Positions 1-18,382 of a stretch of 32,766 nt of DNA are shown here, piece after piece. This DNA is from Pseudomonadota bacterium. GTDB lineage: Bacteria > Pseudomonadota > Gammaproteobacteria > Steroidobacterales > Steroidobacteraceae. The position numbers and the translations under genes were made by a program. The stretch spans positions 1 through 32,766 of the forward strand of contig JAJYLP010000039.1 in NCBI GenBank assembly GCA_021787615.1, in the 5' to 3' direction. Under the pieces are notes generated by a model. The model was not told the origin of the DNA, searched no databases, and saw only the letters and a list, made by a program, of their open reading frames with translations. Each line of letters opens with the position of its first letter. The first letter of the stretch is position 1.

Positions 1-1
1 G

Positions 2-2656: not shown

Positions 2657-2686
2657 ATGGTAGCGATATCAGTCTGGCAGTGTCAA
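2657..2686 (-). promoter_or_regulatory. Putative xylB promoter overlapping operator
   Basis: Read on the - strand there is a perfect -35 TTGACA (2686-2681), an 18-nt spacer and a -10 TACCAT (2662-2657). The -10 is one half of the 14-bp palindromic operator. Transcription would start near 2650 and leave a ~20-nt leader just long enough for the GGGAG ribosome binding site and the CTG start of xylB. Confidence 0.6.
2658..2671. promoter_or_regulatory. LacI/XylR-type operator 1 (xylB side)
   Basis: TGGTAGCGATATCA is an imperfect palindrome with a central CG, as is usual for LacI-family operators. It recurs, inverted and identical, 75 bp away at 2733-2746; with one flanking base the inverted repeat is 15 bp on each side. 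Close variants precede the TonB receptor, the GH35-like pseudogene and xylA. It resembles the xylose-responsive box I recall from Xanthomonas xylan loci (TGGTAGCGCTAACA). Confidence 0.7.
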
Positions 2687-2718
2687 TTGCATACGCGGCG
2701 CGGTGTGCGGCCATGAGG

Positions 2719-2747
2719 TTGTGACCGAAACGTGATATCGCTACCAT
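2719..2747 (+). promoter_or_regulatory. Putative promoter of the esterase operon
   Basis: TTGTGA (2719-2724) as -35, a 17-nt spacer and TACCAT (2742-2747) as -10. The -10 is embedded in operator 2. Start of transcription would be near 2754, giving a ~50-nt leader before the SGNH hydrolase gene. Both hexamers match the sigma-70 consensus at four of six positions. Confidence 0.5.
2733..2746. promoter_or_regulatory. LacI/XylR-type operator 2 (esterase operon side)
   Basis: TGATATCGCTACCA, the exact reverse complement of operator 1. Centre-to-centre spacing is 75 bp, close to seven helical turns, so one tetramer or two dimers on the same DNA face could hold both divergent promoters. Confidence 0.7.
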
Positions 2748-2802
2748 GCGATGACGAAGCGCGCGAGCGGCGTCGCGCCGTACATCGAACGAGGGGACCC
2801 CG

Positions 2803-4131
2803 ATGCCGTCGACACTCAAGCAGTCTCTGTCACGCCTGTGCGTCTGGAGCGCCTGCGCCGCGCTCGCCGCCTGCAGCGCCTCGGGACCGGCCGGCGCGCC
2901 GAGCCACGCGCCCGCGCCGTCCGCAGCGCCCAGCGCCACGGTCGCGCACTGGCTCGGTACCTGGGCCTCCTCGCAGCAGATTCCCGAGACGCGCAACGCG
3001 TTGCCGGCCGCCGCGCTCACCAACGCGACTCTGCGCCAGATCGTGCACCTGACGGTCGGCGGCCATGAGCTGCGCGTGCGCTTCGCGAACGTGTTCGGCA
3101 CTACGCCATTGCACATTCTTGCAGCGCACATCGCCCTGCCCGTCTCGCGCGCCACAGGGGCGATCGATCCCGCCACCGACACCGCGCTCGCCTTCGGCGG
3201 GCGAGCGAGCGTCACCATTCCGCCGGGCGCGGTCTATTATTCCGACCCGGTGGCCTTCGACGCCAAGCCGCTGTCCGATCTGGCGGTGACGATCTACCTG
3301 CGCAAGCCGCCGGTGCGCCAGACCAGCCACCCGGGCTCGCGGGAAACGTCCTTCCTGCTGCACGGCAATCACGTCGCCGCAGTGCAGCTGCCCGGCGCGA
3401 TGCGCTTCAATCACTGGTTCTTCCTCTCCGGCCTCGACGTGCGCGTGCACGGACCCGCCGCCGCCATCGTCACCCTCGGCGACTCGATCACCGATGGCCA
3501 TGCGACTCCCAACAACAGCGACACGCGCTGGCCGGACGATCTCGCCCGCCGGCTGCAGTCCTCCCCGGCCACGCGCCACCTCAGCGTGCTCAACGTCGGC
3601 ACCGGCGGCAACCGCCTGCTGCGCTATGGGCTCGGCCCCGATGCGCTCGCCCGCTTCGACCGCGACGTGCTCGGTCAGCCGGGCGTGCGCTATGTAATCG
3701 TGATCGAGGGCGTGAACGATCTCGGCGTGGCGGGCATGCACGGACCAATCACGGCAGCGCAAAACGCCGCACTGGTGCGCCACATCATCGGCGCATACCG
3801 GCAGATCATCCTGCGCGCGCACGCCCACGGCATCAAGGTCATCGGCGGCACCATCACCCCGTTCAAGGGCTCGAGCTACTACCGCCCGTCGGCCGCGACG
3901 CTCCAGGACCGCAAACAGATCAACGCCTGGATCCGCGCGCCGGGTCATTTCGACGCGGTGGTGGACTTCGCCAAGGCGGTGCGCGATCCGCAGCATCCCG
4001 CGCGGCTGCTCCCCTCGTACGACTCCGGCGACAACCTGCATCCCAACCCGGCCGGGTATCGGGCCATGGCCGACGCCATCCCGCTGTCGCTGTTCAAACT
4101 GCCCACAAGCCCGGACGGCTCGCCGCAATGA
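2803..4131 (+). CDS. SGNH/GDSL-family esterase, predicted lipoprotein
   Basis: A 442-residue secreted hydrolase. The N-terminal signal ends in a lipobox (ALAAC, Cys24), followed by a Pro/Ala/Ser-rich linker to ~46. A beta-sandwich-like region occupies ~50-215 and the SGNH domain runs from ~220. The four hydrolase blocks are visible: GDSITDG with nucleophile Ser228, the GTGGN block at 266-270, GVNDLG with Asn305, and the Asp410/His413 pair in SGDNLHPN. A likely role is removing acetyl or other ester groups from xylan or xylo-oligosaccharides at the outer membrane or in the periplasm; substrate is inferred from the neighbours. The ATG is preceded by GAGGGGA. The last four bases overlap the next gene (ATGA), so the three esterases are probably translationally coupled. 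Confidence 0.88.
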   Translation: MPSTLKQSLSRLCVWSACAALAACSASGPAGAPSHAPAPSAAPSATVAHWLGTWASSQQIPETRNALPAAALTNATLRQIVHLTVGGHELRVRFANVFGTTPLHILAAHIALPVSRATGAIDPATDTALAFGGRASVTIPPGAVYYSDPVAFDAKPLSDLAVTIYLRKPPVRQTSHPGSRETSFLLHGNHVAAVQLPGAMRFNHWFFLSGLDVRVHGPAAAIVTLGDSITDGHATPNNSDTRWPDDLARRLQSSPATRHLSVLNVGTGGNRLLRYGLGPDALARFDRDVLGQPGVRYVIVIEGVNDLGVAGMHGPITAAQNAALVRHIIGAYRQIILRAHAHGIKVIGGTITPFKGSSYYRPSAATLQDRKQINAWIRAPGHFDAVVDFAKAVRDPQHPARLLPSYDSGDNLHPNPAGYRAMADAIPLSLFKLPTSPDGSPQ

Positions 4132-5687
4132 TCCGGCACACCAGCGCACTGCTCGCAGCGCTCGCGTACACCCCATGGTGCGCGAGCGCAACGCCTCCGC
4201 CCGCTCGGGCGTCGCCTGCCCCCGTGACGTTCACCGCCCGGCAGGACCATCGCAACATGATGGAACAGCTGGGGATCCAGGCGCTCTGGCCAGGCGCAAG
4301 CGGCAATGAGAACTCCCCGCGCCACGCCAACTACGATGAGGCGCTCGCCGATCCCTATGGCGCGCTGCCCGACGCGTTGCGCTTTCCCGACGGGCGGGCC
4401 GTCACCACCGCAAGCCAGTGGTGGCACGCGCGACGGCCGCAGATCGTGGCGGCCTTCGAACACGACGTCTACGGGCGGATCCCCCACGGGGTGCCCACAG
4501 TGACCTGGAAGGTCGTAGGCCGGGGCCGCGGCACGCTCGGCGGCTATCCGATCGTGTACCGGCGGCTGCTCGGTGTGGTGAACGACAGCGCCTATCCGCT
4601 GATCCGCGTGAACATCCCGGTGACCCTGGTCATTCCAGCCGCCGCGCAGCGCCCAGTGCCAGTGCTGATCATGCTCACCTTCGGCGCGCCTCCCGTGCCG
4701 CGCACCGGGCCCGACCGGCGCGAACTCGCGGCTGTGAACCGCGCGCTGCGTACGGCGCTCACGCGCACTGGTCCAGCGGCGCGCGCCGTGTTCCAGCGCC
4801 ACCCTCATGCCGCCCTGATCACCCGCTCGATCCTTTCTCCTTTGCGCCGCAACGTCGACGGCGGCGCGCCCTCGGTGGTGCAGCTGATCGCCGCCGGCTG
4901 GGGCTTCGCCTCGCTCGATCCGACGGCGGTGCAGGCCGACAGCGGCGCGGGGCTGACCCGTGGCATCATCGGGCTCGCCAACAAAGGCCAGCCGCGCACA
5001 AGCGGCCAATGGGGCGCGCTGCGCGCCTGGGCGTGGGCGGCGAGCCGCACGCTCGATTATCTGCGTACCGATGCCGCCGTCGACCCTCACGCCATCGGCA
5101 TCGAGGGTGTGTCGCGCTTCGGCAAGGCGGCGCTCGTGACCATGGCGTTTGATCCGCGCTTCGCGATGGGCCTGATCGGCTCCTCGGGCAAGGGCGGCGC
5201 GACGCCGCTGCGGCGCAACTTCGGCGAGTCCGTCGGCAATCTCGCCGGCGCCGGCGAGTACCATTGGATGGCCGGCAACTTTCTGCGCTATGACGCGGAG
5301 CGCGCCGCCTTCGGCAGCCGCAATCCCGGCGATCTGCCGGTCGACGCGAACGAGCTGATTGCGCTGTGCGCGCCGCGCCTTGTGTTCGTGAGCTACGGCA
5401 TCCCCGCCATGGGCGATGCGCGCTGGTTGGACCAGCGCGGCAGCTTCATGGCCACCGTCGCCGCGAGCGCGGTGTACCGGCTGCTCGGGGTGCGGGGCCT
5501 CGGCGTGCGCGGCAACCCCCTCACCGCCCACATGCCGCCGGTCAATCACGGCCTGCTCTCCGGCCGTCTCGCCTGGCGGCAGGATGACGGCGGCCACACC
5601 GATGCGCCCAACATGAAGTACTTCATCGCCTGGGTGGATCGATTCATCCACTACCACAACCGGCAGCGCAGGATGCCCGCAAGATGA
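4128..5687 (+). CDS. Glucuronoyl esterase-like protein (CE15 family)
   Basis: A 519-residue alpha/beta hydrolase with an N-terminal export signal (~1-22). The CE15 nucleophile motif is GVSRFGKAA, with Ser329 and the Arg that contacts the uronate. Downstream come GSSGKGGATPLRR, GESVGNLAGAGEYHWMAGNF and a likely catalytic His490 in DDGGHTDAPN. Near the N-terminus lies the conserved NENSPRHANYDEA stretch. CE15 enzymes cleave the ester between 4-O-methyl-glucuronic acid side chains of xylan and lignin alcohols, which fits the acetyl esterase, xylA/xylB and KDG kinase genes nearby. The start overlaps the previous stop by four bases and the end overlaps the next gene by four. There is a ~60-residue insertion around 188-250 relative to the compact core as I remember it. 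The family call is confident; substrate is inference. Confidence 0.85.
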   Translation: MIRHTSALLAALAYTPWCASATPPPARASPAPVTFTARQDHRNMMEQLGIQALWPGASGNENSPRHANYDEALADPYGALPDALRFPDGRAVTTASQWWHARRPQIVAAFEHDVYGRIPHGVPTVTWKVVGRGRGTLGGYPIVYRRLLGVVNDSAYPLIRVNIPVTLVIPAAAQRPVPVLIMLTFGAPPVPRTGPDRRELAAVNRALRTALTRTGPAARAVFQRHPHAALITRSILSPLRRNVDGGAPSVVQLIAAGWGFASLDPTAVQADSGAGLTRGIIGLANKGQPRTSGQWGALRAWAWAASRTLDYLRTDAAVDPHAIGIEGVSRFGKAALVTMAFDPRFAMGLIGSSGKGGATPLRRNFGESVGNLAGAGEYHWMAGNFLRYDAERAAFGSRNPGDLPVDANELIALCAPRLVFVSYGIPAMGDARWLDQRGSFMATVAASAVYRLLGVRGLGVRGNPLTAHMPPVNHGLLSGRLAWRQDDGGHTDAPNMKYFIAWVDRFIHYHNRQRRMPAR

Positions 5688-7156
5688 CTCCCGCGACGAC
5701 CCTCACGCGCGCCGTGCGCGCACTCGCCCTGACGCTCGCCGGCTCGCTGCTGCCCCTTGCCGCGAGTGCGGCGGTACCGAAGGTGATCTTCACACCGTTT
5801 CATGCCGACGGCATCTATCGCCTCGGCCGCAAAGTCGGCTGGACGGTCACGGTGCCGCCGGGCGCGCCGGATCCGCGCGGCCGCTTCGCCTACACCATCA
5901 AGCGCAATGACCTTGATGTGGTCAGGACGGGAAGCTTCTCGCTCGCCGCCGGCCGGGCGACGATCGCGATGACCTTCGATGCGCCCGCCATGCTCTATGT
6001 CGTGGTCGACTACGAGCCCTCGCCCACGGCGATCTCCCGCGACGATTACCTGGCGCTCAATCGTGGCTTGAAAGCACTGCTCGCCAAGACGGATCCGTCC
6101 CTGCGCGGCCTCTTCGCCCGCTATCCGCACTACCAGCCGCTCGCCCCGCAGTTTCCCTTCGGCGCCTTCGCCGAGCACCGCGTCGCGACCCTGGGGGCCG
6201 CCGTCGCGCCGACGCTGCTGCGCCCATCGGTGCCGGCGCCGAGCGATTTCATGCCATTCTGGTCAGGCAAGCTCGCCGCGCTCGCCAAGGTGCCGATGAA
6301 GGCCAAACTGACGCCGCTGCCCACCGCGCAGGCGAGCGTCAGGCTGTTTCGCGTCCGGTTGAACAGCCTCGGCTCCGACGTGCGCGGCTACCTCGCCATG
6401 CCGGCCCGCGCGGGCCGATTCCCGGCACTCATCATCTATCAGTATGCCGGCGTGTACCCGCTGCACACCGCCTGGGCCACCAACCGCGCCGCCGAGGGCT
6501 GGCTCGCCTTCGATGTCGACTCGCACGACATCGCCCCGGCGAGCGGCAGCGGCGTGCCGCAGGACTACCCGAGCATCGGCGATCGCAGCCCCGCTACCTC
6601 CTACTTCCTCGACATGTACCTGCGCGACACGCGCGCGCTGCAGTACATCCGGCGCAGCCCCTACTGGAACAGCAAGACCGTGGTACTGACCGGGCTCAGC
6701 ATGGGAGGCCAGCAGAGTCTCGCCACCGCGGGATTGAACCCGGGCAAGGTCAGCGCCGTGATCGTCGATGAGCCCTCGGGCGCGGACATGAACGGCCTGG
6801 CGCACGGGCGCAGGCCAGGATACCCCTTCTACACCACGACCGACCGCGCGGTGCTGCGCACGGCGGGGTATTTCGACACCGTCAACTTCGCGCGCTACAT
6901 CACCGCGCCGACGCTGATCGCGATGGGATTCATCGACACCACCGCGCCGCCGGCGGGGATTTGGACCGTGCTCAACCGGATTCCAGCGCCCAAGGAAGCG
7001 GTGCCGCTAGTCGACTCGGACCACATGAACATCACGCCCGATGAGCAGGCGCCCTGGTCGCAGCGCTCCGAGGAGTTGCTCGCCGAGCTCGCGCACGGCG
7101 GAACGTTCGTGCCCAATCAGGCGCTGACCCGCCCGGCGACCCGCCGCGGGCGCTGA
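5684..7156 (+). CDS. Acetylxylan esterase-like alpha/beta hydrolase (CE7/AXE1 family)
   Basis: 490 residues with a Sec signal peptide (cleavage around AASA/AVP, ~29). An N-terminal ~150-residue beta-rich region is followed by the hydrolase domain from ~185 (PSDFMPFW). The triad is readable: Ser339 in GLSMGGQQ, Asp418 in GFIDTTAPP, His447 in DSDHMN. FPALIIYQYAG (246-256) sits where the oxyanion strand is expected. CE7 members deacetylate xylo-oligosaccharides and related acetyl esters. The ATG overlaps the CE15 stop (ATGA), making this the last gene of a three-esterase operon. The Arg-Gly-Gln motif of classic CE7 enzymes is not obvious, so a related esterase activity is possible. A perfect hairpin spans its stop codon. 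Confidence 0.83.
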   Translation: MTPATTLTRAVRALALTLAGSLLPLAASAAVPKVIFTPFHADGIYRLGRKVGWTVTVPPGAPDPRGRFAYTIKRNDLDVVRTGSFSLAAGRATIAMTFDAPAMLYVVVDYEPSPTAISRDDYLALNRGLKALLAKTDPSLRGLFARYPHYQPLAPQFPFGAFAEHRVATLGAAVAPTLLRPSVPAPSDFMPFWSGKLAALAKVPMKAKLTPLPTAQASVRLFRVRLNSLGSDVRGYLAMPARAGRFPALIIYQYAGVYPLHTAWATNRAAEGWLAFDVDSHDIAPASGSGVPQDYPSIGDRSPATSYFLDMYLRDTRALQYIRRSPYWNSKTVVLTGLSMGGQQSLATAGLNPGKVSAVIVDEPSGADMNGLAHGRRPGYPFYTTTDRAVLRTAGYFDTVNFARYITAPTLIAMGFIDTTAPPAGIWTVLNRIPAPKEAVPLVDSDHMNITPDEQAPWSQRSEELLAELAHGGTFVPNQALTRPATRRGR

Positions 7157-7179
7157 GCGGCGGCGATGAGGCTCAGCGC
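7150..7179. terminator. Hairpin spanning both stop codons of convergent genes
   Basis: GCGCTGAGC (7150-7158) and GCTCAGCGC (7171-7179) form a perfect 9-bp stem with a 12-nt loop. The TGA of the acetylxylan esterase (7154-7156) and the TGA of kdgK (7175-7173 on the other strand) both lie inside the stem arms. It probably serves as a shared bidirectional terminator; there is no U-tract. Confidence 0.55.
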
Positions 7180-8192
7180 CGCATCGCGCTCTCGCCGCGC
7201 ACGAGCGCCTCGACCTCCCCGGCGGGGGCGACGCTGAAATCCGTTGCCACAGAATGCTTCAGACAGGCGCACGCGGCGGCGAACTCGACCGCGCGCTGCG
7301 CATCCATGCCGGTGAGCTCACCGTGCAGCATGCCCGCCGCGAACGCATCGCCGCTGCCGATCCGCTCGATGATGCCGCGCAACGCATGGGTCCGCGACCG
7401 GAACACCCCGTCCCGCGAGACGCCTACGGCCGCGAGTGCCTGATCGTCCGCCCCGGGCTCAAGGCGCAAAGTGGTCGCCACCAGACGCAGTTGCGTGAAG
7501 CGCGCAAGCGCTGCGCGAGCGGCCCGCGTGAATGCCTCCTCATCTGCGGGGTGCGGCGCGCCCTCACCCAACATCAGCGCGAGGTCGTGTCCGTTGGCAA
7601 ACAGCGTGTCCGCGTGCTCGGCGATGCCGCGCAGGACCGCTCCAGCCTGTGCGGCGCGCGCTTGCCAAAGCGATGCGCGATAATTGCAGTCGAAGGAAAT
7701 ACCCACCCCGCGGGCGCGCGCCGCGCACACGCCGGCGATCAGAGCGTCCGCCGCCGCCGCGCTCAGCGCAGCGGTAATGCCCGACACGTGCAGCCGGGCA
7801 CAGCCTTCGAGAAGCCTCTCCCAGGGCAGGGGCTCGGTCATCGCACGGCAGAATGCGGAATATTCGCGGTCGTACACCACGCGCGCCGGCCTCGACCCGG
7901 CGCCGCGCTCGAGAAAATACAGTCCCATCCGACCGGCGCCGGTGCGCACCCCCGCGGTGTCCACCCCGTGACGGCGCAGCTCGCCGGCACACAGCGCGCC
8001 GAGCGGATTGTCCGCAAGCACGGTAATCATGACGCTCGGGTGCCCGAGATGCGCCAGGGCGATGGCGACGTTGGCCTCCGCCCCGCCGACGAACAGGCGC
8101 AGATCCTGTGCCGTGCGCAGTATTTCTCCCGGCTCAGCCGCGAGCCGCAACAGCATCTCGCCAAAGCAGGCGATGCGATCAGTTCCGCTCAT
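7173..8192 (-). CDS. kdgK: 2-keto-3-deoxygluconate kinase (PfkB/ribokinase family)
   Basis: A 339-residue sugar kinase. It shows FGEMLLRLA at the N-terminus, LFVGGAEANVAIALAHLG (substrate-binding Gly-Gly), GRMGLYFLERGAGSRP and VVYDREYSAF, both typical of KDG kinases, FDCNYRASLW in mid-protein, and the PfkB signature GSGDAFAAG with the catalytic Asp near residue 287. KDG arises from hexuronate breakdown; with the CE15 esterase next door it likely serves 4-O-methylglucuronate or other uronate released from xylan. I placed the start at the ATG giving MSGTDRIACFGE; an in-frame ATG 17 codons upstream exists but adds residues the family lacks, and neither has a strong ribosome binding site. It follows the DoxX-like gene on the same strand by 113 nt. 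Confidence 0.85.
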   Translation of the reverse strand: MSGTDRIACFGEMLLRLAAEPGEILRTAQDLRLFVGGAEANVAIALAHLGHPSVMITVLADNPLGALCAGELRRHGVDTAGVRTGAGRMGLYFLERGAGSRPARVVYDREYSAFCRAMTEPLPWERLLEGCARLHVSGITAALSAAAADALIAGVCAARARGVGISFDCNYRASLWQARAAQAGAVLRGIAEHADTLFANGHDLALMLGEGAPHPADEEAFTRAARAALARFTQLRLVATTLRLEPGADDQALAAVGVSRDGVFRSRTHALRGIIERIGSGDAFAAGMLHGELTGMDAQRAVEFAAACACLKHSVATDFSVAPAGEVEALVRGESAMRR

Positions 8193-8305
8193 GCTCGCGC
8201 GCCGTTGTGCATCGCAGTCTCTCGGACAAATTGACTCCCACATCGAGCGTATCCGGCGTACCGCTGCGCGTCAAAGCCATCGGCGCGCTCAGGCGCGGCG
8301 ACCGC

Positions 8306-9133
8306 TCAACGGCTGCCCTCGGGACCGGCGTGAACTCCTCTGAGAGGGCGTGAGGGCCCTGCCAACCACGGAGCGCCGTGGTACGAGGCGGCAACCAGCC
8401 ACCCCGCGCCCGTCAGCGCCGAGGACACCATCAGTCCCGTCCAGTTCACGCGGTTGTCGGGCGCTTGGAGCACGAAGCTCACCCAGCACAGTAGCGTCAG
8501 CGCGCTCATCATCCCTGCCGCCAGGCAGGTGGCGAGCCGCGCGGCGATGCGGCAAAGGACAGCGAGCCCCACGGCGATGAAGCCGCAGCCGACCAGGTAG
8601 CCCCAGCCCATCCAGTGCGGGATCCACACCGGCGGGAAATCCGCGTTGGCGCGCAGATAAGCGAGATTGTCGAGACTCATCAGGAAGGCGGCCACCGCGA
8701 ACAGAACACGCCCCGCGCGCACGCCGGCATCGCCGCGAAGCCACGGTGCCCAGCCCGGCTCGGCGGTCATTGGAGCCGCCGCATACAGCAGGAGGGCGCC
8801 GACGATGAGGGCGGCATTCTCGCCAAATCCCGACCAGTGATCGGCAACACCCGGTGAGGCGGCGACGATGGGCCCGTGCAGCAGCACGAACCACAGCGCA
8901 AAGTACGCGCCGAGCGCAAGCGCCGAGCGCCCCTGCAGGCGCCGCCAGAGCAGCCCGGCGCCGAGCCCCACCATGAGCACGCCGTTGGCGTAAGCCAGGA
9001 TCAGCCTCGCCGGCAGGTCCTTCGGCACCGGCTGCCAGACCGAAGCGAAATGCCCCGTCGCAAGCGAGATGACGCCCAGACCGATGACGGCCAGCGAAAA
9101 GATCGTCTGACCGGCGTTATTTGCGATACGCAT
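8306..9133 (-). CDS. DoxX-like integral membrane protein with two similar halves
   Basis: 275 residues, about eight hydrophobic segments. The two halves look related: IFSLAVIGLGVISLATG, a P-rich loop and ILAYANGVLMVGLGAGLL in the first; VLFAVAAFLMSLDNLAYL, FPPVWIPHWMGWGYLVGC and FIAVGLAVL in the second. This pattern recalls DoxX/DoxD-like four-helix proteins in tandem, but I do not recognise a specific function. The ATG has a GA-rich ribosome binding site (GAGGGGGG). It lies between the cupin-like gene and kdgK on the same strand, 174 nt after the former. It may belong to the receptor operon or have its own promoter. No catalytic motif is visible. Confidence 0.72.
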   Translation of the reverse strand: MRIANNAGQTIFSLAVIGLGVISLATGHFASVWQPVPKDLPARLILAYANGVLMVGLGAGLLWRRLQGRSALALGAYFALWFVLLHGPIVAASPGVADHWSGFGENAALIVGALLLYAAAPMTAEPGWAPWLRGDAGVRAGRVLFAVAAFLMSLDNLAYLRANADFPPVWIPHWMGWGYLVGCGFIAVGLAVLCRIAARLATCLAAGMMSALTLLCWVSFVLQAPDNRVNWTGLMVSSALTGAGWLVAASYHGAPWLAGPSRPLRGVHAGPEGSR

Positions 9134-9212
9134 CGGCCCCCCTCAGGTTCAACGGTTCAGTGCGCCAGTGCGTCTCCACCATGCCGCACGCCTGCGACGG
9201 GAGCCGACGGAT

Positions 9213-9235
9213 TGCCTCGCGCGGGACCCGAGGCA
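9213..9235. other. Hairpin in the 9134-9307 gap
   Basis: The 174-nt gap between the cupin-like gene and the DoxX-like gene contains one perfect 7-bp inverted repeat, TGCCTCG (9213-9219) and CGAGGCA (9229-9235), with a 9-nt loop. No U-tract follows on the - strand, so it could be an attenuating or mRNA-processing hairpin between operon segments rather than a terminator. I see no gene in the gap. Confidence 0.35.
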
Positions 9236-9307
9236 GGCTTTGTTCGGCCACCGCCGTCCCTCAGCTCCGCGCTGCCCGATCGCACAGGCGAGCGAGCGCC
9301 GTCCCGA

Positions 9308-10327
9308 TCAGCCACCCCGCATCAGGCGCATGATTCGTGCGCGGATGTATCCATAGTTGTTCGGCTTCAGCGGACCCAGCAGCCCATGCTGTTGCGGCGG
9401 CAGGTGCGCCAGCGGATGGCCCTGGGTGCGAAACACGAAGTGATCGAAAAACGCCTTCCACGCCTGCCGCTCCGCGGGCGGCCGCTCGGCAATGGTGATC
9501 ATGGCGAACAGCAGACTGGTGTAGGGCGCGTCGGGGCCTGCGCTGAATGCATCCCACCAGTGGTTGATCATCGCGTTGAACGGCGCAAGCGACTCGACCT
9601 GATGCCACCAGAGCTTCGGCAGGTACAGCGCATCGCCCGGCTCGAGCTCGGCCACCAGCGCCTGATCGCGGATCGGCTCGAACAGCGGGAAGCGCTCCGC
9701 GCTCGGCTCGTCGGCCGAGGCCGCCAGACTCACCGGCGGACCCGCCATGGTGTGGTCGATGGGTCCGACATAGAGCCTTCCGATCAGCTCCGGCGCATAG
9801 AGAGTGAAGCGGCGCCTCCCGGCGATGACGCAGGCAAGGTTGTCGAAGGTGTCGTAGTGGCTCGAGACGTTGGAGGGATGTCCGAACCAGAGCCGCGCAC
9901 CGGCGCTCGCCGGCAGCAGCGGCATGGGATTGGCGCCGGCGAAGCCCGGCATGCACTGCACCACCGGCACCGAGCCGACGTAGAGTGTCTCGGCCTGCGG
10001 CCGCTCGAGGCGCTCGAGCATCAGCTCGAGCGCCTCGAGAAACTTCAGCTGCCGCCGCTCGAAGTTGAATGCCTTCAGGTCCGGCGTGTAATAGTACTTG
10101 CCGGCAATGGCCGGATCGCCGGCAAACGCCTCGACGCTCAGACCCGTGTCGAACGTAGCGAAATACTGCTGCAGTTCCCGCGGCGAGCGACGCCCTGCCT
10201 GCACGGCGGGCCACTCGGCGGTGAGTCCGCGCAGCACGACGGGACGGCAGGCCTCGAGGATCTCGCTGCGGAACTGCTCCGGTCCCGCCAGATCGCGGCC
10301 GGCGATCTCGGTTGGGGATTGAGCCAT
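9308..10327 (-). CDS. Cupin-like (JmjC/cupin_8) domain protein, putative Fe(II)/2-oxoglutarate dioxygenase
   Basis: 339 residues, no signal peptide. The N-terminal part (RPVVLRGLTAEWPAV) is typical of cupin_8 hydroxylases. The metal site reads His157-x-Asp159 in SSHYDTFDN, followed by the CVIAGRRRFTLYAPE strand, with the third ligand His242 in LYLPKLWWHQV. The family resembles factor-inhibiting-HIF and peptidyl or tRNA hydroxylases; the substrate here is unknown. It lies 32 nt after the sapC-like gene and belongs to the recurrent receptor-halogenase-SapC-cupin gene set seen in Xanthomonadales and Caulobacterales glycan loci. Because the HxD...H facial triad is intact, an active oxygenase is more likely than a structural cupin, but this is inference. 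Confidence 0.83.
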   Translation of the reverse strand: MAQSPTEIAGRDLAGPEQFRSEILEACRPVVLRGLTAEWPAVQAGRRSPRELQQYFATFDTGLSVEAFAGDPAIAGKYYYTPDLKAFNFERRQLKFLEALELMLERLERPQAETLYVGSVPVVQCMPGFAGANPMPLLPASAGARLWFGHPSNVSSHYDTFDNLACVIAGRRRFTLYAPELIGRLYVGPIDHTMAGPPVSLAASADEPSAERFPLFEPIRDQALVAELEPGDALYLPKLWWHQVESLAPFNAMINHWWDAFSAGPDAPYTSLLFAMITIAERPPAERQAWKAFFDHFVFRTQGHPLAHLPPQQHGLLGPLKPNNYGYIRARIMRLMRGG

Positions 10328-10359
10328 GGGCGATTCCGGGGCGTCGGCGCCGCCGGCTC

Positions 10360-11097
10360 TCAGCTCGCCTTCAGGTCGGGCGTGACCGCCAGACTCTCGG
10401 TCATCTGGAGCAGTCGTGCATTCTTCGTCCGGGCCATCACGCGCACCTGTTTGAGCGAGGCGATCATGAGATGAATGAGCGCCAGGTAGCCCCGGCGGAA
10501 CAGCTCGAGTGCCATCGCATCCGGAATCCGCAAGAGCACTTCCTGGTTGACGGTGTAGAGTCCCTCGCAGTGACGCAGCGTGCCGTCCTCGAACTCCACC
10601 TCGATGTCGATCGGCTCGATCAGATTGAGCTCGAGAAGCCGGGCGATGAAGATCCGGGTCCGCTCGATGCCCGGCTGCAGGTCCTGGAACGCCCAGATGA
10701 CGCTCTGCAGGTAACGGCTCGGCTGGCCATGTTCCGTGAACAGCGGCTTGCCCCCTTCGGCCTCGACCCGTGGGTGATCGAGATCGATCGCAAGCTCCGG
10801 CCCGTGGGCGTAGAACGGGGCGCGCTGCAGGCTGAGCGGGCGATAGAACTCCGGGTCTGCCCGCCAGTCCTGGAGAAACTGATTCTCGCCCTCGATGAAT
10901 CCCAGCATCGCGCCGCAGAAGAACTGCCCCGTCGCCTGCTGCTTGCCGAAGAGGATCGGATAATGCACCACCAGGTGCGGGAACTCGTTGACGATGACCT
11001 GCACGAAGTGCTGGTTGTCACCGTACTCGGCCGACGGCCGGCCGTCGACCTTCAGGTTGCGGTGCTTCTCATTGTTGAGCGGGACGATCTGGGTCAT
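10360..11097 (-). CDS. SapC family protein
   Basis: 245 residues, soluble, no signal peptide. It matches the SapC family (named after a Campylobacter S-layer gene) by its N-terminus (IVPLNNEKHRNLKV), the central FFCGAMLGFIEGENQFL, the GLYTVNQEVL segment and the C-terminal GYLALIHLMIASLKQV. The real function of this family in glycan loci is unknown. It sits 18 nt after the halogenase gene and 32 nt before the cupin-like gene, so all three are almost certainly co-transcribed with the TonB receptor. Nothing ties it to S-layer secretion here; a role together with the halogenase or cupin protein is the more natural guess. Confidence 0.86.
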   Translation of the reverse strand: MTQIVPLNNEKHRNLKVDGRPSAEYGDNQHFVQVIVNEFPHLVVHYPILFGKQQATGQFFCGAMLGFIEGENQFLQDWRADPEFYRPLSLQRAPFYAHGPELAIDLDHPRVEAEGGKPLFTEHGQPSRYLQSVIWAFQDLQPGIERTRIFIARLLELNLIEPIDIEVEFEDGTLRHCEGLYTVNQEVLLRIPDAMALELFRRGYLALIHLMIASLKQVRVMARTKNARLLQMTESLAVTPDLKAS

Positions 11098-11115
11098 GGC
11101 AGGGCGCGCTCAAGC

Positions 11116-12663
11116 TCACACGGGCTGCAGTCCGAATTGGTAAATCTTGTTCAACAGCTCGCGGTTGCGGGGCAGCCGCGTGCTCAGCTCGCCGGTGATC
11201 CGCTCATTCTCGCTCACGAACCGGGCGGCCGTCGCCGCCGTGTCCACCGTATCCTCGGGCATGACTTCGGTCCGGAATCCCATGCCGTAGAGCACGTACT
11301 GGTAGCTCGCTGCGGGGAACACCTCCTCGAGGCGGTCCAGCTCGTCGAAGAACCACGGCGACTGATACTTCCACAGAGTCAGCAGATCCTTCAAGCGATC
11401 GGGGACGGTAGCAGGATCCACATTGTCGCGCCAGAACGCCGTGTCCGTGCGTTGCGTCAGCACGTAGTGGAGCTTCAGGAAATCGATGATCCGGCCCCAG
11501 CGGTACATCGTGACGTCGTTGAAGCGGCGCGCGACGATGTCCATCACTTCCCGGCAGGCTGGCATCTGCTCCGCCAGGAGCTTCGCCGAAAGCTCAACCA
11601 GGACAATCGCGGAGGACTCGAGCGGTTCGAGAAAGCCCCCTGCGAGCCCCATCGCGACGCAATTGCGCTTCCAGAAGGTCTCCCGGTGCCCGGCGCGGAT
11701 TGGGATCTTGCGCACCGGCAGGTCCTTGTGCTGCGGCCCGATGTAGCGCAGCAGAGTCGCGCGCGCCGCCTCCTCGCTGCTGTGCCGGCTCGAATAGACA
11801 TAGCCCACGCCGCGGCGCGTGGGCAGGCAGATGTCCCACGTCCATCCCGCCTCGTGAGCGGTCGCAATGGTGTGCGAGGCCATCGGCGCATCGGGTGTCG
11901 CGAACGGCACCTGCACCGCGAGCGCCGTATCGCAGAGCAGCACGTCGCTGCAGTCCTTGAAGCCGACGCCGAGCGTCTTGCCGAGCAGCAGCGCGGAGAA
12001 GCCGCTGCAGTCGATGAACAGATCGCCGTGAATCTCACCGACCTGCCGGGTGAGCAGGCTCTCGATATCCCCGTTCTCGCGCTGATGCACACTGACAACG
12101 TCCGCGAGCACATGGCGCACGCCGAGCTTCTCCGTGCAGTGCTGCGCGAGGAACGGCCCGAACTTGCCCGCATCGAGATGGTAGGCGTAGTTTGCGAGTG
12201 CCCGGTATTCCCCGTGGGTGATGGTCTTCGGCGCGAGCCCCGCATCGCACAGCCGCCCCTGCGGGCTCACGAAATCGCAGAAGCTCGTGCCGCTGCCCTC
12301 GCGCAGCCAGTGCGGCACGAGGTTCACCTGCGAGAACCCCTGCGGAAGCATCAGCGGGTGGTAATACGAGTCCCCCGCCGCTCCCGTGGTCCAGCCGATG
12401 AACTGCCCTCCCTGCTTGAAGGCCGCATCACACTCCCGAAAGAGCGCCGTCTCCGACACACCCATCCGCTCCAGGGACGAGCGCATCGTCGGCCACGTGC
12501 CTTCCCCTACGCCGATCGCGCGGATGTCCGGCGACTCGATCAGCGTGACCGAGAAGCCGCCCGCCTTCATCCGAGCTTGATGGCGGGCGGCGATGGTACC
12601 TGCGGTGAGCCACCCGGCGGTTCCTCCGCCGACGATGACGACCGCCTTGACGGGTCTTATCAC
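11116..12663 (-). CDS. Flavin-dependent tryptophan halogenase-like protein (receptor-linked)
   Basis: 515 residues from a GTG start that lies one base after the receptor stop (TGA-T-GTG), suggesting coupled translation. The FAD-binding VIVGGGTAGW is at ~9-18. GVGEGTWP is followed by CDAAFKQGGQF with Lys83 at the position of the essential halogenase lysine. The signature tryptophans appear as WTWDIC (274-279), so the usual WxWxIP has Cys for Pro. GGFLEPLESSAIVL carries the conserved Glu. The machinery for FAD-based hypohalous acid chemistry thus appears kept, but the substrate pocket is unassigned. Related Xanthomonas proteins are known to halogenate free indoles, preferring bromide. Its position in a TonB receptor operon of a xylan locus argues for a role in sensing or processing imported molecules. 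An in-frame start 14 codons upstream would lie inside the receptor gene. Confidence 0.88.
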   Translation of the reverse strand: MIRPVKAVVIVGGGTAGWLTAGTIAARHQARMKAGGFSVTLIESPDIRAIGVGEGTWPTMRSSLERMGVSETALFRECDAAFKQGGQFIGWTTGAAGDSYYHPLMLPQGFSQVNLVPHWLREGSGTSFCDFVSPQGRLCDAGLAPKTITHGEYRALANYAYHLDAGKFGPFLAQHCTEKLGVRHVLADVVSVHQRENGDIESLLTRQVGEIHGDLFIDCSGFSALLLGKTLGVGFKDCSDVLLCDTALAVQVPFATPDAPMASHTIATAHEAGWTWDICLPTRRGVGYVYSSRHSSEEAARATLLRYIGPQHKDLPVRKIPIRAGHRETFWKRNCVAMGLAGGFLEPLESSAIVLVELSAKLLAEQMPACREVMDIVARRFNDVTMYRWGRIIDFLKLHYVLTQRTDTAFWRDNVDPATVPDRLKDLLTLWKYQSPWFFDELDRLEEVFPAASYQYVLYGMGFRTEVMPEDTVDTAATAARFVSENERITGELSTRLPRNRELLNKIYQFGLQPV

Positions 12664-12664
12664 A

Positions 12665-15600
12665 TCAGAACCGGGCTCGCACTCCAAAGGAGAGCGTAGG
12701 TCCATACTCGACCAAGTTCAAGGTCTGATTCGGGAACCGTCCGTACGTATGGTAGATCGAGTTCAGAATGTTGTTGGCATCGAAGTACACGTTCAGGTAC
12801 TTGTCGACCTGGTAGTTGGTGGCGAAATCGAGCTGCGTGAACGGCGCCTGATACACCGGCTCGTTGCCGAAGGCGCCGCCACCCTGCTCCTGACCCGTCA
12901 GGAGCAGCAGCTTGGCCTGCCAGTTCACCGTCACTCTCGCCTGCCACTTGCCCCTCTGGTAAAACACGGTGCCGTTTGCCGAGCTGCCGATGCCCGTCAG
13001 CGCGAACTGGTTGGAGTCCAGACTGTAGTTGTTGAAGTTCGCGTTGCTGTGCATCCATGTGCCGTTGATCATCACGCCGAAGTCATACGGCAACATCTGC
13101 TGCCAGGTGCCCGAAACCCCCGTGACATCCGCCGACAGCTTGTTCGTGAAGGTGGTCTCCGCGAACACCATCGGCTTGCCGCAGCCCGGGTCATTGAACA
13201 CCACCGCGCCGCTGCTGTTGACGTACTGGCACGGAGCCGGATCGTTGATCGGCAGCGTCACGTTCGCCACGCTCGATGTCGGGAAGTTCGACACCTGCTT
13301 GTAGAACGGATGTAGCTCCGCGTAGTCGCCGCGGGCGTAGAACCAGTTCACCCGCAGATCGAAGTTGTTCGAGAGGTATGGCAGCAGTCCCGGATTGTTT
13401 CCGGTCGCGGTGAGCGCGTTGACGCGCCCGCCGTAGCTCGTGTTCGGAATCAGCTGGAAGTTCGGCGGCGCCGACTCCGTCCGCGAGAAATCAAATGCCG
13501 TCTCGAAGTCCCGCGTGGGCCAGAGCGCCAGGTCCAGGGCCGGCAGGAAGTAGCCGTAGGACTCGGTGGTCTGGGTCCAGACGGGCTTACCGAGCGCGAA
13601 GCTATACGCGGTGGGATCGCCGGAGCCCAGCCAGGACACACCCGTCACCGCCGCGTTCAGGCCCGCGATGGTCTCGTCCGTCTTCTGGTAGCGCAGACCG
13701 AGGCGGGTCATCAGCTTCATGCCGCCGACGCGGAAATTGTGGCTCACCTGCACGAACGGCGCGTAATTCATGCGCGAGACGTGCTGCACGCTGCCCGGGT
13801 TCAGCGCTTCCGGCGGAATGTAGCCGCCCGTGTACGGCGCATAGCCGTTCTTGACGGCGGTCGCGTTCTGGCTCGGGTCCCACGGCTGATTGATCAGGTA
13901 ATTGAGCACCGTATACGGGTTGTACATCACCAGGCTCGCCGGCAGATTGCCGCCGCCGCTGTAGCCGGGCATCCAGGTACCGAGGTTCACGGCCGTGAAC
14001 ATCGACGCGGGCAGCGCGACGCCGTTGCCGTTGAGGTTGTTCGAGGCCGGGCCGTAGCCCGCCCAGAGCTCCCAGAAGTTGTTGGTGAAGGTATCCATCT
14101 CCTTGGTGTTCCAGTCGTCGTCGAGGAACTGCGCGCCGAACTGCACCTTGGTGGCGTCACCCGGGTTCCAGGTGGCGGAGATCTTCGCTTCGTTGATCTG
14201 GTCCGAATTCTGCTGGGTCTGCAGCGGCAGCACGTGCGAGCCGATGATGAACGGATTCAGTCCGTTGTAGTTCGACGATGCGACAGCGCTCGATCCGGAC
14301 GCAACGGCGTTCGGTCCGTAAGCGCTCCAGTACGGCAGCACATTGCCGCTCGCATTCAACACCAGGCCGCCGGTGTAGTTGTTCGCGTTGTTGCCGAAAC
14401 CCGTGTCGACGTCGATATCGGAGTACGTGCCGTTCGGGTTCAGCCGCGACTTGGACTGATCGGCGTCGACGCTCAGGGTCCAGTCCTCGTTTACGTTCCA
14501 CAGTACGTTCAAACCGTACGTGTTCGTGACGATGTACTGGTCCGCGACGAACGCATTGAAGTCGGTCGGGCCGGTGTAGTTGAAATTGGAGATCGAGCCG
14601 TTGCCGTCGAGCGTCGCATTGGGGAAACCGCCGAACCAGGTGCTGCGCTGCCAGCGCTCATCGTGCTGATCCCACGAGGAATAGTTGTCATCGAGCGTCA
14701 CCATCAACGCGCTGCTCGGATGCCACTGCAGCACGGCGCGCCCGTCCTTGCTGCGCGTATCGACGCGCTCGAGATACATGGCCATGTCCTGCGGATACCA
14801 CACCGGCACCCGCGCATCGCCGGTGGCGCCGGCTCCGACGCTCGCGCAGCCGGTGCTGCCGAAGGCGGTGTTGAAGTTGGCCGCGAGATTGGAGCAGGCG
14901 AATCCCCCGGCGGCGATGCCCTTCCAGCCCACGACGTCCTGATGATGCGTCAGCGTGTGGTGATCCTGGTAGTCCCCGTCGATGAGGATGCCGAACTTGT
15001 TATCATCGAACGTGTCGCTGAACAGAGCGCCGACCGCCGGCCGCATGCCGCCATCCATCGGGTAATCGCTCTCCCCGACGTTCACCCCGCCGTGCATGCC
15101 GGGATTCATGAACGGGGTCAGCATCTTGATGTTGACCACCGAGCCGATGTTGCCCGAGGAGAGGGCCATGTCCGGGGTCTTCAGGGTGTCGATTTCCCCG
15201 ACGTACATGGCACCGACGGACGCGACATTGAAGGTCTGTCCGTTGCCGGAGGCGATCTGCCGGCCGTCCATCAGCACCGTATTGAATGATCCGCCGAAGC
15301 CGTTGACGTTGAAGCCCTCGGGCAGGCCCGTGGCGGTCGGCGCCCCGAAAGAGCTCGAGTAGACGAGCGAGCCGCGGTTGATCGTGACGCCCGGCAAGTG
15401 CGCGAGCGCGCCGCCGATCGAGGAGTCGGGGAACTGGCCGATCGTCTCGGCGGAGATCGCATCGACCACCCCGATCGACTCGCGCTTGATCTCCAATGAT
15501 CGCTGCAGGGAGCCGCGGATGCCGGTAACGATGATCGGCTGCAGCTGCGTGGCGGATTCCGCCGCCGACTTGCCGATGCTGATGCTGTTGTTCCCGTTCG

Positions 15601-15916
15601 CGCCGTTGGTGAGCGCAGCGTTGTTCTGCGCGTAGAGTTCCGCGCCGGTGCGCGAGAACAGGCCCGTCGAGGCCAGCCGCTTCGCCTTGAAGCCGCGCCG
15701 CTTGATCTTGCCCGTCGCGCCGGGCACGGCCGGTTGATCCGCACCTTTCCTCGGGGCGCTCTGCGCGTGCGCGACGCCACCTGCGGCCAGGGTCAACGAC
15801 CCCAGCGCCAGCCCCGAGAAACCGAATTTCGCGTAGGCCGAACGGCCCAGCACATCGAGTCCCGCATTCCTCTTGAACGCGTGCGTCGATGCGTTACGCA
15901 GTGTCTTCCGACTCAT
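12665..15916 (-). CDS. TonB-dependent receptor (Xanthomonas/Caulobacter type), probable xylo-oligosaccharide importer
   Basis: 1083 residues. A long signal sequence ends near GVAHA/QS (51). An unusual ~73-residue basic and Asn/Ala-rich stretch follows before the TonB-box-like LQPIIVTG (125-132). The plug begins with IRGSLQRSLEIKRESIGVVD and continues with ISAETIGQFPDSSIGGALAHLPGV and NVNGFGG...VLMDGRQIASG. The rest is a large beta-barrel rich in Asn, Trp and Tyr, ending in VRARF with the C-terminal Phe of outer-membrane proteins. Such receptors bring oligosaccharides or other large ligands into the periplasm using TonB energy. Xylan-derived ligands are inferred from context and the shared operator. 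It heads an operon with a halogenase, SapC and cupin genes. The ATG is preceded by GAGGGGG. The leader is ~120 nt if transcription starts at the operator-linked promoter. Confidence 0.93.
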   Translation of the reverse strand: MSRKTLRNASTHAFKRNAGLDVLGRSAYAKFGFSGLALGSLTLAAGGVAHAQSAPRKGADQPAVPGATGKIKRRGFKAKRLASTGLFSRTGAELYAQNNAALTNGANGNNSISIGKSAAESATQLQPIIVTGIRGSLQRSLEIKRESIGVVDAISAETIGQFPDSSIGGALAHLPGVTINRGSLVYSSSFGAPTATGLPEGFNVNGFGGSFNTVLMDGRQIASGNGQTFNVASVGAMYVGEIDTLKTPDMALSSGNIGSVVNIKMLTPFMNPGMHGGVNVGESDYPMDGGMRPAVGALFSDTFDDNKFGILIDGDYQDHHTLTHHQDVVGWKGIAAGGFACSNLAANFNTAFGSTGCASVGAGATGDARVPVWYPQDMAMYLERVDTRSKDGRAVLQWHPSSALMVTLDDNYSSWDQHDERWQRSTWFGGFPNATLDGNGSISNFNYTGPTDFNAFVADQYIVTNTYGLNVLWNVNEDWTLSVDADQSKSRLNPNGTYSDIDVDTGFGNNANNYTGGLVLNASGNVLPYWSAYGPNAVASGSSAVASSNYNGLNPFIIGSHVLPLQTQQNSDQINEAKISATWNPGDATKVQFGAQFLDDDWNTKEMDTFTNNFWELWAGYGPASNNLNGNGVALPASMFTAVNLGTWMPGYSGGGNLPASLVMYNPYTVLNYLINQPWDPSQNATAVKNGYAPYTGGYIPPEALNPGSVQHVSRMNYAPFVQVSHNFRVGGMKLMTRLGLRYQKTDETIAGLNAAVTGVSWLGSGDPTAYSFALGKPVWTQTTESYGYFLPALDLALWPTRDFETAFDFSRTESAPPNFQLIPNTSYGGRVNALTATGNNPGLLPYLSNNFDLRVNWFYARGDYAELHPFYKQVSNFPTSSVANVTLPINDPAPCQYVNSSGAVVFNDPGCGKPMVFAETTFTNKLSADVTGVSGTWQQMLPYDFGVMINGTWMHSNANFNNYSLDSNQFALTGIGSSANGTVFYQRGKWQARVTVNWQAKLLLLTGQEQGGGAFGNEPVYQAPFTQLDFATNYQVDKYLNVYFDANNILNSIYHTYGRFPNQTLNLVEYGPTLSFGVRARF

Positions 15917-16046
15917 TAGAAGCCCCCTCTATCGCAAATGCCTGGTGTTGTGATCGAGCAACGTCGAGTGTGGCCGTCGACATGGGCCGGGTTGCGACGG
16001 CTGGAGAATTCCCACACGGCCCCTGGTTATTCGCCCCCTGTCGCTA

Positions 16047-16060
16047 TGGTACCGCTACCT
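16047..16060. promoter_or_regulatory. LacI/XylR-type operator 3 (receptor operon)
   Basis: TGGTACCGCTACCT fits the 14-bp operator seen upstream of xylB and the esterases. On the - strand its half-site gives TACCAT (16051-16046) as a possible -10 for the receptor operon, as in the other promoters. No good -35 lies 17-18 nt upstream (CTCGTT or ACTCGT), so this promoter may be weak or need an activator. Confidence 0.6.
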
Positions 16061-16589
16061 GATGACGGAACGAGTATGTTCCTGCTCTCACCTCCGTGTC
16101 AACAGCCGCGCAAGCTCGAGCGTCGCACGCTGTAAAATACGGCATTTTCCTGTCTAGCGCGGCATATTGGATTCACACCCGAGTATCCCGGAACGATGCG
16201 GATCGTGGCTTGCCCGGTCGGCGCGCTGGTGGTCGCATGGTTACGCGAACAGGCGGTGGCGAAGGCGCCGGCGGCATGCTCCGCCCGGCCTCGGCTCAGG
16301 CTGACAGCGGGACGCCGCGGCGGCCCGGGGTGGCCCGACTTGCGTTGGCCGATCACCACAGATGCGACGCACCTCGCTCTCGGGAAAGCCGCCGTGATCA
16401 CGCCGTGCCCCGGTCAGCGGCCGGACCCCCAACGGCGGGCCTCGGGCCGGCGTGTTGTTCGCTCCGCCGGAGCTTGACCCTGACAGTGGTGTCATCCGTT
16501 TGGCCATTGGGTTTTCGTAACGGCCGAGAACTGCGGCGAACGGATGCTGCCGCGCGGTCAGCGCTCACGGTCGGAGCGCCGCGCCAACC
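16061..16589. other. ~530-bp spacer without a recognisable gene
   Basis: The stretch separates the receptor operon (-) from the GH35-like pseudogene (+). Short open frames of 80-180 codons exist but show no family motif, no ribosome binding site and no agreement between frames. It holds a small AT inverted repeat (AAAAT-ACGGC-ATTTT, ~16135-16149) and a 10-of-14 palindrome, TGACAGTGGTGTCA (16481-16494), just after a TTGACC. The latter could be a binding site for another regulator, but only one copy was seen. Decayed sequence from a lost gene is possible. Confidence 0.4.
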
Positions 16590-16631
16590 TGATAACGTTA
16601 TCTTGACGGCCCGAAATCGGCTCCCTAGTCT
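16590..16631 (+). promoter_or_regulatory. LacI/XylR-type operator 5 with putative promoter of the GH35-like gene
   Basis: TGATAACGTTATCT (16590-16603) has a perfect 12-bp palindromic core, GATAACGTTATC, and fits TG(A/G)TAnCGnTA(C/T)C(A/T). It abuts a -35 TTGACG (16603-16608); TAGTCT at 16626-16631, 17 nt further, is a poor -10. Here the operator overlaps the -35 rather than the -10, unlike the other four sites. The downstream gene starts at TTG 16661 with GGAG seven bases before it. Confidence 0.5.
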
Positions 16632-16660
16632 CGGCAGCCGTCTGTAGCCGGAGCAGTGCA

Positions 16661-18321
16661 TTGAACAGCCTTGCGCGCACGGCGCGCCGCACGCTCACCG
16701 GTGTCGTCTGCGTACTCATCGCGAGCGCCGTGCGCGCCGCGGCGATCCCGCAGCTGCGCGTTGCGGGCGGCTCGGTGCAGCTGATCGTGCGCGGCAGGCC
16801 GTTCCTCATCCGCGGCGGTGAGCTCGGCAACTCCTCGGCCGGCACGGCCGCGGCGGCCGAGGCGGTGCCGCCGGCCCTGGCGCGGCGCAACTTCAACACC
16901 GTGCTGATGCCGGTCGCCTGGGACCAGATCAAGCCGCGCCCGGGCCGCTTCGAGTTCACCACGCTCGATCACTGGATCGCGCTTGCGCGCACTTGGCATC
17001 TGCACCGGGTACTGCTGTGGTTCGGCAGCTGGAAGAACGCCTTCTCGAGCTATGCGCCGCGCTGGGTGCTGGACGATCCGCGGCGCTCTCTGCGTGCGGT
17101 ATCGACCGCAGGCACGACGCTGCCGATGCTCTCGGTCTTCGGCCGCGCAACGCGCGCTGCCGATGCGTCCGCCTTCGCCGCTCTGATGCGCCATGTGCGC
17201 CGCATCGACGGCGCTCGCCGGACGGGGCTCATGGCGCAGGTGGAAAACGAGGTGGGCTGCCTAGGTCTCGGGGGCCGGGACCGCTCGCCCAGCGCCGACA
17301 GGCCGTTCGATCGCCCCGTCCCGCCGCGCCTGCTGCGAGCCCTCGCGGCGCCCGGCCGGCGCCTGCCGTGGCGGCTCGCGGCGCATTTCACGCCCGCGGG
17401 TCGTTCCTGACCATCGGTGTTCGGTCCGCGGGCCGGCGAGATGTTCATGACCTGGCACTACGTGCGTTACATCGAGTCCGTGGCCCAGGCGGGCAAGCGG
17501 CAGTATCCCCTGCCGATGTACATGAACGCGCAGCTGCCCGCTGCGCATGAACGGGCCGGACACTATCCGAAGCGGCGGGCCCTATCCACTGTGCCAGCCG
17601 GTTTACCGCGTGGCGGCGCCTGCGGTCGATTTCGATGCACCGGACATCCATTGGCCGGACTTGGAGCGTTGGGTCACTCGGGATCGGCGCGCGGGCAACC
17701 CGGCGTTCGTGCCCGAGTCGCGCCTCGAGCTGGCCCCGTATGACGCGCTCTACGTATTCGGCGAGGCGCGCGGCTTCGGCTTTTCGGCCTTCGGCGTCGA
17801 TCACCCGCTCGCTCCGCCGGATCGGGCCGAGCGCGCTCTCGCGGCCGTCTACGGCGCGCTCGCGCCGCTCGGCGAGCGATTCATCGCGGCGCAGCAGCCC
17901 GGGCTCACGCGCGCGCTGATTCTGCATCGGCACAGCCCCCGCCCCGAGCAGACCGTGGCGCTCGACGGCTACCTGTTCCCGCGCCACGCTGGCGCGCAAC
18001 CGGCGCGCCAAGGCACCGCTGGCGCGGACTGGCGCGATGCTCGTGCTCGAACGCCGGCCCAACGTGTTTGAACTGCTCGGCAGGGGCCTCACTGTCACCG
18101 TGCTGCGCAATCCTGACACCGATGATCGCATCGCCGGGATCGCGGGCATCGAGGCGCTGCGCTGGCGCGCCAGCCACTGGGCCGTCGCGGCGCGCCTGAA
18201 GGGGGACCAGAGCAATCAGGGCCGGCAGGTGCTGCTGGCCGCCCACCGCGTGCACCTCTACCGCGTGCGTCTCTACAGCATTGCGCGGCCGTCGCCGCCC
18301 TCGGGACGGGCGCGGCCTTGA
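16661..18321 (+). pseudogene. GH35/DUF5597-type beta-galactosidase-like gene, broken by a stop and two frameshifts
   Basis: The translated pieces align in order with secreted GH35-like proteins carrying DUF5597. They are a signal peptide, FLIRGGELGNSSAG, NFNTVLMPVAWDQIKPRPG, LLWFGSWKNAFSSYAPRWV, MAQVENEVG (acid/base Glu region), then FMTWHYVRYIESVAQAGK and PLPMYMNAQL, APAVDFDAPDIHW, GFGFSAFGVD and a C-terminal tail to 18321. Three lesions break it: an in-frame TGA at 17408-17410 where the family has Trp (likely TGG to TGA), one extra base at ~17570 (HYP then SGG resumes in another frame), and another extra base at ~17985-18036. The start is TTG with a GGAG site. No other gene in the window has such lesions, which favours true decay over poor sequence, but three assembly errors cannot be excluded. 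It would have acted on galactosyl or arabinosyl decorations of hemicellulose. Confidence 0.8.
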
Positions 18322-18352
18322 GCGGCACACCGGGGCCTGCCATGACGTGGCA

Positions 18353-18382
18353 TTGACGGCACCGGGATGATACCGCTACCAT
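18353..18382 (+). promoter_or_regulatory. Putative xylA promoter overlapping LacI/XylR-type operator 4
   Basis: TTGACG (18353-18358), an 18-nt spacer and TACCAT (18377-18382). The operator TGATACCGCTACCA occupies 18368-18381 and shares its half-site with the -10, the same arrangement and spacer as at xylB. Transcription from ~18389 would give a ~180-nt leader before xylA. That leader holds no convincing gene; very short frames of 18-20 codons (for example from ATG 18409) are present but unsupported. Confidence 0.62.

Follow-up and report, generated by a model that had tools for sequence, protein, structure and literature searches.

The window analysed here, a stretch of 32,766 nucleotides that makes up the complete 32.8-kb contig C60 of a Steroidobacteraceae genome (3.73 Mb, 176 contigs, 99.7% complete), carries genes for xylan and xylose use together with a recurring 14-mer of the form TG(A/G)TAnCGnTA(C/T)C(A/T). 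A sequence-only reading of the same stretch had proposed that five copies of this element are LacI-type operators that tie the locus into a single regulon. We searched the pattern for exact matches on both strands, and all five copies proved exact. They are listed below together with the identity of the ten fixed motif columns in aligned relatives.

2658 to 2671, minus strand: xylB operator, TGATATCGCTACCA when read towards xylB; exact match; fixed columns 1.00 in 4 relatives.
2733 to 2746, plus strand: operator of the esterase operon, TGATATCGCTACCA; exact match; fixed columns 1.00 in 1 relative.
16047 to 16060, minus strand: operator of the TonB receptor operon; exact match to the pattern; fixed columns 1.00 in 2 relatives.
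16590 to 16603, plus strand: operator before the broken GH35-like gene, TGATAACGTTATCT; exact match to the pattern; fixed columns 1.00 in 1 relative.
18368 to 18381, plus strand: xylA operator; exact match; fixed columns 1.00 in 1 relative.

These five places correspond to eight strand-matches, far above the level of 100 dinucleotide shuffles (mean 0.02, maximum 2, none of the 100 reaching 8). All five lie outside called genes, as had been claimed, in a locus of which about 7% is intergenic (3807 of 52412 bases). The esterase operon operator is the reverse complement of the xylB operator, while the sites at 16047 and 16590 carry a terminal T and fall one base short of a full palindrome. The genes of the window are the following.

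1 to 1054, plus strand: C-terminal part of a GH3 glycosidase; the N-terminal part lies on contig C34, with its operator at C34:39023.
1171 to 2628, minus strand: xylB, xylulokinase (TIGR01312 over cut-off), with a probable CTG start at 2628.
2803 to 7156, plus strand: esterase operon, with a GDSL hydrolase (2803-4131), a glucuronoyl esterase-like protein (4128-5687) and an AXE1 acetyl xylan esterase-like protein (5684-7156), Pfam over cut-off.
9308 to 15916, minus strand: TonB receptor operon, with the receptor (12665-15916), a Trp_halogenase-like protein (11116-12705), SapC (10360-11097) and Cupin_8 (9308-10327).
16661 to 18321, plus strand: GH35-like gene (label of the earlier reading), broken into several frames in this assembly.
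18572 to 19888, plus strand: xylA, xylose isomerase (TIGR02630 over cut-off).
19898 to 21403, plus strand: Trp_halogenase-like gene after xylA.

The assignment of the sites to downstream units held for xylB, the esterase operon, the TonB receptor operon and xylA. For the fifth unit the position stood, but the label GH35-like is unconfirmed, as the gene is broken and neither of its two largest pieces matches a Pfam family. In the sibling genome G030, the aligned stretch reads through 575 codons without a stop, and the operator is conserved there. At xylB, the expected start position offers no ATG, GTG or TTG. A CTG at 2626-2628 on the minus strand, preceded by GGGAG, fits, and the relatives keep CTG in six of eight rows (two of the six identical) and have GTG in the other two. 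Translation of xylB probably starts at this CTG, which leaves 29 bases between operator and start codon. Nothing on a CTG start appeared by title among the literature matches listed. As a separate observation, the window holds two Trp_halogenase-like genes, one on the minus strand, which together with SapC and Cupin_8 follows the TonB receptor, and a second on the plus strand after xylA.

The sites extend beyond the window. Each of the contigs C34 and C70 overlaps one end of the window by 127 bp without a difference, and the order from C34 into the window is found on one contig in G030. Genome-wide, the exact pattern occurs at nine places, compared with one per strand for the backwards control. 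Eight of the nine lie within about 49 kb formed by C60 and its neighbours C34 and C70, and the ninth precedes a GH51 arabinofuranosidase gene. The four exact sites outside the window are given here.

C34:25717: between the LacI-family gene and a sugar transporter gene.
C34:39023: between a transporter gene and the GH3 gene.
C70:4826: between the gene of an unnamed secreted protein and a divergent regulator-like gene.
C18:18277: before the GH51 arabinofuranosidase gene.

Matches as frequent inside genes as upstream of them, the outcome that the sequence-only reading had named as telling against it, were not seen: nine of nine exact places across the genome are intergenic. When one mismatch to the strict palindrome was allowed, 15 places were found. 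Five of them belong to the locus and are all intergenic, namely the window sites at 16047 and 16590, a site before the LacI gene, a site in the gap between GH67 and the mannitol-dehydrogenase-family gene, and a site before a second transporter. The remaining ten (four in genes and six between genes, with C16:8474 judged from its coordinates) look like background together with sites of other LacI proteins. More specifically, three of the six intergenic ones lie on C16 and have ATCGAT cores, and one lies on C95; these are probably operators of other regulators. The C16 sites form pairs with an ATCGAT core (8457 with 8474, 21196 with 21212), and a similar but unpaired site, C95:1204, lies next to another LacI gene.

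To assess conservation, intergenic stretches were aligned to relatives, with duplicates and alignments more than 97% identical removed. In these footprints, the ten fixed motif columns were 0.97-1.00 identical at all 12 sites, compared with 0.68-0.89 in the flanks. Furthermore, several operators coincide with promoter-like matches. The xylB operator overlies the spacer and -10 of TTGACA-18-TACCAT (2686-2657), the xylA operator overlies the spacer and -10 of TTGACG-18-TACCAT (18353-18382), and the TonB receptor operator starts at the 13th base past the -10 of TTGACA-18-CATACT (16102-16073). Promoter scans gave no match at the other two window sites, those of the esterase operon and the GH35-like gene. 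The operator is directly followed by a T, which completes a -10-like hexamer, in 12 of 15 gene-oriented contexts. Taken as consensus matches, these promoters suggest repression by promoter occlusion.

The absence of the regulator gene from the window, already noted in the sequence-only reading, was borne out; a candidate lies in the same genome, 13.5 kb past the left edge, flanked by an exact site at one end and a site with a single mismatch at the other.

C34:25774-26838 (window frame -14592 to -13528): LacI-family regulator, with PF00356, PF13377 and PF00532 over cut-off.
C34:26983: site before the regulator's own gene, TGATTGCGTTATCA; one mismatch; fixed columns 0.97 in 3 relatives.

This C34 gene answers the earlier reading's proposal to look for a LacI/XylR gene with its own site. 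The weak site before it, of a sort that many regulators of the family have, suggests feedback. The adjoining transporter has XylE as its best NCBIfam match, at 565.7 bits just under the cut-off of 608. The genome encodes six LacI-type DNA-binding domains, and only the C34 protein has the recognition helix VSPMTVSRV, which is present in 77 of the 79 homologous loci covering it.

We then compared 60 genomes, the own genome included, with the regulator counted as present at 60% identity or more. The 18 genomes with the regulator contain 126 exact palindromes (2-11 each) versus 18 for the reversed pattern; the 42 genomes without it contain 27 versus 24. Within the genus, at least two sites occur in 18 of 18 genomes with the regulator versus 2 of 19 without. 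Two further genomes of the 60, G017 and G036, have a 50% identical protein and hold one site each. Site number thus tracks the regulator gene.

The same association was followed in public genomes, where the best 80 of 123 loci with regulator homologues (1.38 Mb, Xanthomonas itself not among the 80) were scanned. Identity is 98% in proteobacterial metagenome-assembled genomes, then 66-72%, and falls to 50-62% in Steroidobacter, Povalibacter, Phenylobacterium, Caulobacter, Dyella, Pseudoxanthomonas, Nitrospirillum and others. In these 80 loci, TGNTANCGNTANCA occurs 93 times and its reversal 0 times, with at least one occurrence in 63 loci. The 15 loci titled Caulobacter contain homologues of 52-57% identity, and TGTTAGCGCTAACA lies within the fetched flank in 10 of them.

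Together, these observations lead us to assign the sites, as operators, to a XylR-type LacI-family repressor, the product of C34:25774-26838, with a probability of about 0.93. The proposal that a LacI-type operator unites the locus as one regulon is supported by the intergenic sites, the regulator gene and a near-identical published box. Several points weigh against this reading. The footprints are based on one to five sequences at 11 of the 12 sites (16 at the xylT site). At up to two mismatches, the whole genome shows no excess over the reversed control (134 versus 222). The Fisher value of 8e-12 for the link between site number and regulator in the 60 genomes overstates independence due to the relatedness of the genomes. 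Moreover, G007 and G011 (80% and 84% complete) hold seven and six sites without a close regulator, G044 and G054 hold two sites each without one, and 17 of the 80 homologue loci have no motif in the fetched flank.

In the regulon predicted for XylR, sites precede xylB, the esterase operon, the TonB receptor operon, the broken GH35-like gene, xylA, the XylE-like transporter and the regulator, and also GH67 with uxaC, the mannitol-dehydrogenase-family gene, a transporter with manD, GH3 and GH51. This content reads as the uptake and dismantling of branched glucuronoxylan oligomers. From homology and position, we infer repression at the promoter and release by xylose. A sugar-free XylR dimer would hold each palindrome and so keep RNA polymerase out, given that the -10 region is covered by the operator at xylB and xylA and lies shortly before it at the TonB receptor. 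XylR would then leave the DNA on binding xylose derived from imported xylo-oligosaccharides. The release would jointly raise uptake (TonB receptor, XylE-like transporter) and debranching (esterases, GH67, GH51), and with them GH3, xylose use (xylA, xylB) and the glucuronate branch (uxaC, the mannitol-dehydrogenase-family gene, manD).

A different answer may apply to the inducer. The same regulator and sites may respond to a xylo-oligosaccharide or a glucuronate-derived sugar instead of xylose, an alternative that we hold to be possible but do not favour. The glucuronate branch belongs to the regulon, with sites before GH67 with uxaC and before the transporter-manD unit, and the xylR locus of Xanthomonas campestris pv. 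campestris (Xcc) is induced by xylo-oligosaccharides, as cited in the accessible part of PMC7748154. In contrast, the XylR proteins of Caulobacter and Xanthomonas are released by xylose according to the accessible part of PMC10380989, and xylA, xylB and the XylE-like transporter are members of the regulon here.

It is very improbable that the sites are read by one of the five other LacI-family proteins that the genome encodes. One of the six genes is on C18, the contig of the GH51 site, and one is on C95 beside a one-mismatch site, but the recognition helix differs in the other five proteins, and it is the C34 protein that site number follows across genomes and whose homologues the motif accompanies. 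A chance similarity of GC-rich intergenic DNA, with which the two-mismatch counts below the reversed control would agree, has a negligible probability in view of the exact-site enrichment, the intergenic placement, the conservation and the co-occurrence with the regulator.

The XylR regulon, as read here, also takes in a secreted, unnamed protein family whose members may act as xylan enzymes. The family has two copies in this genome.

C34:34259-36214: copy 1 (L012/L013 pair), secreted-looking, third gene in the transporter-manD unit.
C70:2886-4793: copy 2 (L012/L013 pair), secreted-looking, behind its own operator.

The copies comprise 651 and 635 residues and are 44% identical. The family matched nothing in Pfam, NCBIfam or the PDB sequences (for the PDB, the first copy was compared by sequence and a profile was run up to E 10). 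When six members were scanned against Pfam with E values of up to 10 allowed, the single family obtained was weak and irrelevant. Two viral-contig scans and the plasmids contained no relative. An AlphaFold2 model from six rows reached a mean predicted local distance difference test score (pLDDT) of 43.5, and nothing was drawn from it.

Of the 60 genomes, 18 contain the family; these all belong to the same genus and hold at least two sites each; four genomes with at least two sites lack it. The motif lies within 300 bp in 9 of 35 upstream stretches of family genes (some genes counted by both queries), and in loci L095 and L096 a family gene stands directly before the regulator. Outside the genus, the family was found in one of the other 397 phylum-sample genomes, next to GH31, GH3 and esterase genes, with no motif in the 19.9 kb fetched around it. 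A faecal contig labelled Bacteriophage sp. (MT836551.1, L210) carries the family beside SusD- and GH9-like genes and also holds an epimerase-like gene; given this content, it may be a gut bacterial fragment and not phage DNA.

Due to its predicted co-regulation with xylan genes, the unnamed family is a candidate xylan-active enzyme. The own genome, at 99.7% completeness, gave no match for GH10, GH11, GH30 (PF02055) or GH5, with GH8 and other families not sought, and its GH43 match was below threshold. In G030, a GH10 gene split over two frames (C24:195078-195922, L208) starts about 660 bp behind an exact site of the XylR type (C24:194420). That the family is a new class of xylan-active glycosidase which replaces the missing endoxylanase appears unlikely. 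Seven genomes with the family were checked: an intact GH10 occurs in G032 (the 3.2 kb fetched held no motif), GH30 and GH5 in G006, GH5 in G026 and GH43 in G003, which leaves room for xylanases besides the family. The cell may also live on oligomers released by others.

With this regulon, an uncultured lineage gains a defined set of xylan genes under common control and its likely repressor. No XylR regulon in Steroidobacteraceae appeared by title among the literature matches listed, which is no proof of absence in print.

Judged from its sequence features, the system belongs to the XylR regulons of the Xanthomonas/Caulobacter type, a form of control that is already known. The resemblance to the xylose box of Xanthomonas, noted in the sequence-only reading, is confirmed by the published xyl-box TGGTAGCGCTAACA, one base off the pattern (PMC10380989 and PMC7748154, accessible parts). 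A palindrome is common to the Caulobacter xylose regulon and Xcc xylose genes, as stated in the accessible part of PMC1790865. Furthermore, TGGTAGCGCTAACA is found exactly upstream of xylB in three of four Dyella loci. The regulator is homologous (50-62% identity) to motif-adjoining LacI proteins in Caulobacter, Dyella, Pseudoxanthomonas, Steroidobacter and others.

Like the system described here, that of Caulobacter crescentus uses a LacI-type repressor, which there is released by xylose (PMC10380989, accessible part). The operator arms of Caulobacter have a T at position 3. Xylose is degraded oxidatively in Caulobacter, whereas xylA and xylB are present here.

The Xanthomonas regulon also shares the LacI-type repressor and involves a TonB receptor, xylA and xylan genes, while the operator arms differ, being TGRTA/TAYCA here. 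Within the Xcc xylR locus, only xylA2 is described as repressed by XylR in the accessible part of PMC7748154. In contrast, nine exact and three one-mismatch sites here cover the main units, the glucuronate branch included, and to the extent of that source, local XylR control looks more complete here than in Xcc. Under this XylR/xyl-box logic, a single type of operator would serve the main units for xylan, xylose and glucuronate.

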